Assembly: GCA_002716585.1 (NCBI GenBank)
Contig: PBBL01000081.1
Span: 124,001 to 188,000, forward strand
Length of the DNA: 64,000 bases
Origin: Myxococcales bacterium
Lineage (GTDB): Bacteria; Myxococcota_A; Bradymonadia; Bradymonadales; GCA-2716585
Reading direction: 5' to 3'
In this document: in pieces, positions 22,251 through 23,693 of the stretch
Numbering within the stretch: position 1 is the first letter of the stretch
How the letters are laid out: the number at the start of each line of letters is the position of its first letter
The notes under the pieces: generated by a model
The model's input: only the letters and a program-made list of their open reading frames with translations
Database searches by the model: none
What the model was told of the DNA's origin: nothing
Translations under genes and position numbers: made by a program

Positions 22251-22284
22251 AACAAAAAAGGCCCCGCGCTCTCGCGCGGGGCCC
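22251..22284 (-). terminator. Rho-independent terminator after the matrixin gene
   Basis: On the minus strand a perfect 10-bp GC stem (arms 22274-22283 and 22260-22269) with a four-base loop is followed directly by six T residues (22259-22254). It sits about 27 bases past the stop codon of the 22311-23693 gene. It is a textbook intrinsic terminator. Confidence 0.9.
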
Positions 22285-22310
22285 TGGTTGTGGAGGACGC
22301 CAGGGGAGGT

Positions 22311-23693
22311 TCAGTCGCGGACGAGGCGGCGCAGCTCGTCGAGTTCGATGGCGAAGGTCATGTCGTCGCCGTGCACGGCGACGCGCTCCTGGTTGACGAG
22401 GGCGACGTCGGTGAGGTCGCGGACGGCGACGGTGTCCTGACCGAGCTGGTGGACCCGGAGGGCGCCCAGCGCCATCCCGAAGGGTCGAAACACCTGCCCG
22501 AGGGTGTTGGGGGTGGCTTCGAGGAACAGGACGAGGCGGTCGCCGGTGCGCATGGTGGTCACGCCGTGAACGCGCTGCTCCAGGTCGCCGACCACGCCGC
22601 CGGGGGTGCGGACGACGAGGGTGTCGTCGTCGCAGTCGCCGGACCAGCACTCCTCGACGCGGACGGTGGTGTGGGTCCAGATGACGCCGCCCTCGAAGTC
22701 GGCCGCCTGGTCGAGGACCTCGACGAGGACGACGCGCTCGCTGGCGACGGTGACCTGGTCGAGGGTGAGGGCGGGCAGGGTGGTGGCGGTGGCGCTGGAG
22801 GAGACGGCGACGACGCCGGTCACCAGGAGCGCGGCGACGGCCAGCGTGCTGCGGCGCGCGGTGTGGCGCGGCTGGCGACGGCGGCGGAAGAAGGTGGCGC
22901 CCAGGAGCAGCCCGCCGAGGGCGAAGAAGGCCCCGAAGCCGCGAGGCGACCCGCCGGGGGCGGTGGTGGAGCAGGCGAGGTGGACCTGAGCGTCGTTGAT
23001 GCGGTAGCCGGAGTCGTCGCTCTCGGTGGCGACGTCGGCGTCGGTCCAATCGGAGCCGATCGCCTGGGTGTTGTTGGCGTAGAGGAAGTTCAGGCCACGG
23101 AGGTCGTCGTTGTAGAGGGTCCGCTTGAGGACCTCGCCGGGGGCGGCGCTGGGGAACATGGTCGCGTGCTCCGATTCGCTGTGGCCGAGGCCGATGAAGT
23201 GGCCCACCTCATGGGTGAGGCTGTTGCTGAGGTCGTGGCGGCCCGACTGCCCGTCGGTGGCCCAGCTGTAGTCGGCGCTGTTGATGATGATGTCCGCGTC
23301 CACGAGGCGACCGGAGCCGCGCTCAAACGAGGTCAGGGTCAGCGCGAGGGCGTTGGGGTCGTAGGGCCAGCTGTCGTCCTCCCAGATGATGGTGTTGGAG
23401 TTCTCCTGGTTCTTGACGTAGCCGTGGTGGCCGTTGGCGATCTCGCCGCCGTAGACGAGGTGGAGGTCGGCGCCGTGGCCGTTCCAGGTGTCAAACGACT
23501 CGATGATCGCCTCACGGGCCTGGGTGTTGGACATCTGGCGCGTCCCGGCGGTGTGGATCGTGTAGACGACCTCGGGGGTGTCCCAGTGGACGGTGGCGCC
23601 CGCCTCGGTCTTGCTGATCTCGAAGGCGAAGCCGGGGGCGGTCAGGAGAGAGACGACGGCGATGGTGGCAGCGGTGGTCGCAGCGAGCTTCAT
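22311..23693 (-). CDS. Matrixin metalloprotease fused to a second exported domain
   Basis: A 460-residue protein starting at the ATG at 23693 (GGGAG eight bases upstream). Signal peptide about 1-23. A matrixin-type domain follows, with zinc motif HEVGHFIGLGH (161-171) and Met-turn HATMF (Met179). Residues 241-273 have the layout of a MYXO-CTERM tail: Cys241, Gly/Pro-rich linker, membrane helix FGAFFALGGLLLGATFF, then RRRR. Instead of a stop codon the frame continues into a new signal-like segment (basic, then STLAVAALLVTGVVAV, Ala-x-Ala near 303). A second domain (about 305-460) rich in beta strands follows, with CWSGDC and a VVRTPGG motif. It looks like two adjacent genes joined in frame. 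Downstream domain function unknown. Confidence 0.85.
   Translation of the reverse strand: MKLAATTAATIAVVSLLTAPGFAFEISKTEAGATVHWDTPEVVYTIHTAGTRQMSNTQAREAIIESFDTWNGHGADLHLVYGGEIANGHHGYVKNQENSNTIIWEDDSWPYDPNALALTLTSFERGSGRLVDADIIINSADYSWATDGQSGRHDLSNSLTHEVGHFIGLGHSESEHATMFPSAAPGEVLKRTLYNDDLRGLNFLYANNTQAIGSDWTDADVATESDDSGYRINDAQVHLACSTTAPGGSPRGFGAFFALGGLLLGATFFRRRRQPRHTARRSTLAVAALLVTGVVAVSSSATATTLPALTLDQVTVASERVVLVEVLDQAADFEGGVIWTHTTVRVEECWSGDCDDDTLVVRTPGGVVGDLEQRVHGVTTMRTGDRLVLFLEATPNTLGQVFRPFGMALGALRVHQLGQDTVAVRDLTDVALVNQERVAVHGDDMTFAIELDELRRLVRD

Follow-up and report, generated by a model that had tools for sequence, protein, structure and literature searches.

A matrixin, an internal MYXO-CTERM-like tag and a predicted TIMP-fold partner in one reading frame of a Myxococcales bacterium

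In animals, TIMPs are inhibitors of MMPs, and the amino group of TIMP residue 1 binds the catalytic zinc of the target enzyme. In bacteria, genes for proteases and their partners have been found side by side. In Tannerella forsythia, the potempin inhibitor genes directly precede the KLIKK protease genes (PMC7296668). In Listeria, adjacent genes encode a metzincin (Mtz) and a TIMP-like exported protein (Tim), which is a lipoprotein that is cleaved by Mtz, rather than simply inhibiting it; the authors of that study came across no previously described bacterial TIMP-like protein (PMC8235301). The MYXO-CTERM proteins carry a tag whose helix anchors the protein and which is cleaved by myxosortase at the cysteine. 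Internal tags are rare: one occurs in MXAN_5598 of Myxococcus xanthus, which is thought likely to be a fusion of two genes and for which processing at the internal tag has been proposed (PMC11980579). The locus described here has a matrixin, a MYXO-CTERM-like tag and a predicted TIMP-fold domain in a single reading frame.

The window, i.e., the whole stretch of DNA that was analysed, is 64,000 nucleotides long (contig PBBL01000081.1, positions 124,001 to 188,000). On its minus strand, where all of the features given below are situated, an ORF (22311..23693) begins with an ATG at 23693, ends with a TGA at 22313-22311 and runs for 460 amino acids without an internal stop. It encodes, in this order, a signal peptide, a matrixin, a linker, a MYXO-CTERM-like tag, a loop with a second signal-peptide-like segment, and a beta-rich domain. 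GC3 is 0.94-1.0 and is even across the junction between the tag and the second domain. On the 3′ side of the stop codon there is a GC-rich, intrinsic terminator-like hairpin with a T run (22258..22285; one found, versus 0.5 expected in shuffled sequences). The sequence-only reading of this DNA had claimed a protease, a sorting tail and a second exported protein in a single frame. This is confirmed: the ORF is free of stops and is also fused in relatives, so that the fusion is both real and conserved.

The first signal peptide (residues 1-23; 23625..23693), recognized from its sequence and a hydropathy peak, is predicted to be cut between G-F-A and F24. The matrixin (M10) catalytic domain that follows (residues 24-208; 23070..23624) was matched by PF00413 in a Pfam scan with an E-value of 1.4e-12 (48.2 bits versus a gathering cut-off of 24) and contains the zinc motif HEVGHFIGLGH (residues 161-171; 23181..23213), which had been described as complete from the sequence alone, with Met179 of the ATM turn just downstream. 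In an alignment of seven fused proteins, Met179 and most positions of the zinc motif are invariant. The closest solved structure in the fold comparison was karilysin (8b2q; Z 19.1, rmsd 2.5, 158 residues aligned), and MMPs scored Z 17-18.5. Thus, by its zinc motif, Met-turn, Pfam score and fold, the enzyme that partners the second domain is a matrixin, with predicted proteolytic activity. The family model NF041905 (MXAN_2677/2678 metalloprotease) gave 119.6 bits versus a curated cut-off of 250, which makes the protein a relative rather than an equivalog. A propeptide with a cysteine switch, a trait of animal-type MMPs, is absent, and the catalytic domain begins at F24 directly after the predicted signal peptide cut. 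F24 aligns with the mature N-terminal Phe79 of MMP-8, with residue 83 of MMP-3 and with residue 35 of karilysin. Because the predicted signal peptide cut thus makes the enzyme begin where mature MMP-8 and karilysin begin, the matrixin appears to be made without a propeptide.

The tag (22875..22973) has all three elements of a MYXO-CTERM, namely a cysteine (Cys241), a hydrophobic helix and an arginine cluster (RRRR270-273), in agreement with the sequence-only reading. Its score is about at the cut-off of TIGR03901 (19.9 bits in a scan of the whole protein and 25 bits in a genome search, versus a cut-off of 20), and it is not C-terminal, as 187 residues come after it. Like MXAN_5598, the window's protein thus carries the tag within a longer frame; unlike it, it pairs a protease with a putative inhibitor, whereas MXAN_5598 combines an adhesin with outer membrane barrel and OmpA domains, and the main text contains no analysis of how its junction is conserved (PMC11980579). 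The loop and the second signal-peptide-like segment (residues 274-303; 22785..22874) end in A301-T-A303, immediately before T304. Since hydropathy peaks at ~252-270 and 281-297, two hydrophobic segments flank the arginine cluster, and the earlier description of a frame that runs on into a signal-peptide-like segment and a beta-rich domain holds good. A301 and A303, which form the signal-peptidase motif, are invariant in 7/7 aligned fused proteins, and so are Arg271/272, in a region that is otherwise weakly conserved.

From the arginine cluster to halfway along the second helix, no ATG, GTG or TTG is present in the window's copy or in those of two other genomes (G004 and G053); the only candidate start codons inside the window's copy are a GTG in mid-helix, plus CTGs. 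An independent internal start for the window's second domain was rejected, as the loop lacks these codons. An in-frame ATG is still found in the loop of G026, G003 and G054, so that extra internal starts are possible there. As there is no stop between the parts, ribosomes that start at the matrixin must produce the fusion. Given the invariant Ala-x-Ala of the fused proteins and the lack of start codons in the window's copy, the best reading is that the chain is a polyprotein, likely cut at two sites. A candidate myxosortase, an MrtX-like CPBP protease, is encoded in the window's genome (108 bits versus a family cut-off of 180); the best CPBP proteins of the 57 genomes of the class all fall below that cut-off. 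MrtX itself is reported to be functional in E. coli (PMC11980579).

Other internal MYXO-CTERM tags were observed. In the window's family (f1), eight of the 120 inspected tags are internal, with a segment resembling a signal peptide or a lipoprotein signal, and then another domain, after them; outside f1, none of the 60 top-scoring tags has a following signal peptide, but the two samples differ in score and enrichment in f1 is not claimed. In the window's own genome, a protein with a lipoprotein-like N-terminus (L003; G000:C64:12549-12656) has a tag, RRRR, a signal peptide ending SDAEA and a barrel-like exported domain of ~180 amino acids. Elsewhere, a MYXO-CTERM protein continues in frame through a signal peptide into DsbA-like CPFC domains in tandem (L217/L284; G003:C649), and a MYXO-CTERM surface protein is fused in frame to a protein that is barrel-like and shows features of calcium repeats, which recalls TraA-TraB and MXAN_5598 (L257/L283; G004:C65). 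In two cases (L204, G004:C292; L251, G002:C419), the internal tag is immediately followed by a lipoprotein signal (LGATAC, VLGAC), and these chains may each give a surface protein and a lipoprotein. At L277, L278 and L288 (in G002, G003 and G004) and at L082, a matrixin, a tag, a signal peptide and a further matrixin share one frame, downstream of a separate TIMP-like gene.

Relatives of the window's protein were found in 56 of the 57 genomes of the class. In genome contigs, a search with the single protein gave none, and one with an alignment did find relatives. Six other genomes of the class (G002, G003, G004, G026, G053 and G054), each of another genus, have the same in-frame fusion, with proteins that are 33-44% identical to the window's. 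The window's genome (G000), G002, G003 and G004 belong to one family, and G026, G053 and G054 belong to another. L053 and L075, both from Myxococcota that are further removed, also have a matrixin, a tag, a signal peptide and a weakly matching second domain in one frame. Split genes occur as well: in G032, which is of the same genus as G026, there is a stop after RRRRV and then ~75 nucleotides to the next start; in G035, the two genes overlap by 4 nucleotides (ATGA); and in G038, the second start lies 3 nucleotides past the stop. Since close relatives have two adjacent genes, the fusion either derives from such a pair or is able to come apart into one. In a tree of the matrixins, the fused G000, G002, G003 and G004 form one supported clade, so that the fusion has been kept across four genera of the window's family, and the fused G026 lies beside the split G032. 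The tree implies at least six changes between the fused and split states, of which the supported branches force only one, and gain and loss cannot be distinguished in it. The sequence-only reading had offered a processed polyprotein or a joining of two genes by stop loss, and each of these holds in part, as the adjacent split genes speak for joining and the one-frame state has been kept across genera.

The second domain (residues 304-460; 22314..22784) is the part for which the analysis goes furthest beyond the sequence-only reading, as both its predicted fold and its partnership with matrixins across the phylum are new. An AlphaFold model built with 47 relatives has a mean pLDDT of 96.3 and a pTM of 0.90. 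In Foldseek, the top PDB matches were agrin NtA, followed by TIMP-2, TIMP-1 and the NTR domain of PCOLCE; the PDB entries for agrin NtA describe it as related to N-TIMP-1. In VIA-align, N-TIMP-3 from its complex with TACE came first (Z 10.9, 2.5 Å, 113 residues aligned), tied with NtA (Z 10.7) and TIMP-1 (Z 10.6). A netrin/TIMP (NTR, OB) fold is therefore well supported by the model. The Pfam profile for agrin NtA (PF03146) also matched three of the 47 members (best E-value 2.9e-4, residues 7-58 versus profile positions 6-56), with a best score of 21.1 bits that lies below the gathering cut-off of 25.1, and is an independent pointer to the same fold as the structure comparison. The Pfam scans of the 47 members gave no match to the TIMP family, no Pfam or NCBIfam name was obtained for the window's second domain, and a sequence-profile search of PDB chains with this domain gave nothing meaningful, PotA and TIMPs included. 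Potempin A was absent among the best 50 fold matches listed, which excludes nothing.

The N-terminus of this domain is of particular interest. Residue 1 of the model, Thr305, aligns with TIMP residue 2 in 3cki, 2j0t, 6mav, 1br9, 2e2d, 1bqq and 3ma2, which places Thr304 at TIMP residue 1. An AxA-like site stands exactly before residue 1 in 55/58 distinct family members; position -1 is Ala in 56/58, and residue 1 is Thr, Ala or Ser in 55/58. A fixed N-terminus is seen in both the matrixin and the second domain and is therefore no proof by itself. The Cys1-x-Cys3 and the conserved disulfides of TIMPs are absent, as the domain starts Thr304-Thr305-Leu306 and has only two cysteines. The system thus resembles the animal MMP/TIMP system in having a matrixin catalytic fold, an NTR/OB partner and a mature N-terminus at the position of TIMP residue 1. 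In contrast to the animal system, it is bacterial, has a surface tag in place of hemopexin, is encoded as one chain, lacks the propeptide, Cys1-x-Cys3 and TIMP disulfides, and is only predicted to involve inhibition.

A profile of the TIMP-like domain matches 215 of the 282 Myxococcota genomes. The usual arrangement in the phylum is a pair of neighbouring genes, with the TIMP-like gene just before the matrixin gene. When 20 loci were chosen by the TIMP-like match alone from elsewhere in the phylum, outside the window's family, a matrixin was directly downstream on the same strand at 19 of these. Pairing of the two is thus well supported as near-obligate across the Myxococcota, which implies that a matrixin goes with a TIMP-fold partner that is probably its inhibitor. 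At one of the 19 (L383; G108:C75), HExxHxxGxxH was not found in the matrixin relative, which is perhaps an inactivated protease. The other matrixin/TIMP-like pair in the window's genome (L276; G000:C47:53000-58000) consists of two genes in the order opposite to that of the fusion, i.e., with the TIMP-like gene first. TIMP-like domains adjoining a matrixin were also seen within very long ORFs in two Woesearchaeota bins (L104, L108) and a Melioribacteraceae bin (L105, Ignavibacteriota), possibly through transfer or binning error. The pairs resemble the karilysin-Potempin A and other KLIKK pairs, as karilysin is the nearest fold and the partner gene precedes the protease gene in most of the Myxococcota pairs; they differ in that potempins are lipoproteins from separate genes and the window's domain has no sequence match to PotA. 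The Listeria Mtz-Tim system differs from the window's fusion in being encoded by two genes, in being phage-associated and in that Tim is a lipoprotein.

The following sequence of events can be proposed. The chain would span the inner membrane as a hairpin, in which the helix of the tag runs inwards, the arginine-rich loop is cytoplasmic and the second signal peptide runs outwards, leaving both the matrixin and the TIMP-fold domain in the periplasm. Myxosortase would cut beside Cys241, so that the matrixin becomes lipid-anchored and destined for the cell surface, and signal peptidase I would cut after Ala303 and so release the second domain, which would then begin with Thr304. This new N-terminus may bind the matrixin's active-site zinc in the fashion of TIMP residue 1, and an inhibitor supplied in equimolar amount by the chain itself would thereby restrain an enzyme without a propeptide. 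Inhibition of the matrixin is the most likely function of the partner, by reasoning from an enzyme without a propeptide, a partner with the fold and the N-terminal position of an inhibitor, and a potempin-like gene order; set against this are the absence of the TIMP cysteines and the occurrence of the NTR fold in non-inhibitors (agrin, complement, netrins). The whole account, in which one precursor gives a matrixin and a TIMP-fold partner by two cuts and the partner caps the zinc of the enzyme as its inhibitor, is modestly favoured.

Other explanations were weighed against this account. The possibility that a stop codon or frame break near 22870 was lost through faulty sequencing or assembly, as the sequence-only reading had allowed, would fit a draft genome in 91 contigs, but it was rejected, as eight other, independently assembled genomes have the fusion with sequences that have diverged, and its probability is close to nil. 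A neutral fusion, in which a stop codon was lost, the second product comes mostly from a weak or non-AUG internal start and co-linearity has no function, is improbable. Split neighbours do occur, G032 being of the same genus as the fused G026, and the loop ATG has been kept in G026, G003 and G054; set against these are the lack of such codons in the window's copy, G004 and G053, the stop-free frame that obliges ribosomes to make the fusion protein, and the retention of the fused state in four genera of one family. We give equally little credence to a chain that stays uncut, as a membrane hairpin that holds the protease and its partner together. The full-length model (pTM 0.75, with 95 residues of pLDDT <50) docks the two domains, judged by the pTM of ~0.43 expected for undocked and ~0.72 for firmly docked domains, and myxosortase cleavage at internal tags is so far a proposal; set against this, the AxA site is invariant in all fused proteins, and the internal tag of MXAN_5598 has been proposed as processed in Myxococcus (PMC11980579).

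The most serious of the alternatives accepts the fusion and the pairing and takes the TIMP-fold domain to be something other than an inhibitor, i.e., a chaperone, an activator or a targeting or binding module, or else a substrate of the matrixin that is set free by cleavage. Agrin NtA and complement C345C are NTR folds that bind other partners, and the TIMP-like lipoprotein of Listeria is cut by its own metzincin to give an active fragment (PMC8235301). Nevertheless, this is rather unlikely in view of the mature N-terminus fixed at TIMP residue 1, the matrixin without a propeptide, the gene order shared with the potempin-protease pairs and the docked domains of the full-length model. The two-cut precursor with an inhibitory partner is therefore the account we prefer. 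A broader proposal, which is put forward tentatively, is that matrixins are controlled by TIMP-like proteins throughout this bacterial phylum, possibly in a manner homologous to that of animals, and that some lineages use a polyprotein, the inhibitor of which would be activated only when signal peptidase exposes its zinc-capping N-terminus.

TIMPs are discussed as proteins of animals. If bacteria do have a widespread matrixin that comes with a TIMP-fold partner of its own, this would provide a simple model for how inhibitors of the TIMP type work and how they originated, and a natural fusion fixes which enzyme belongs with which partner. Perhaps, a C-terminal sorting tag followed by a fresh signal peptide is a route by which Gram-negative bacteria obtain several exported proteins from each chain.
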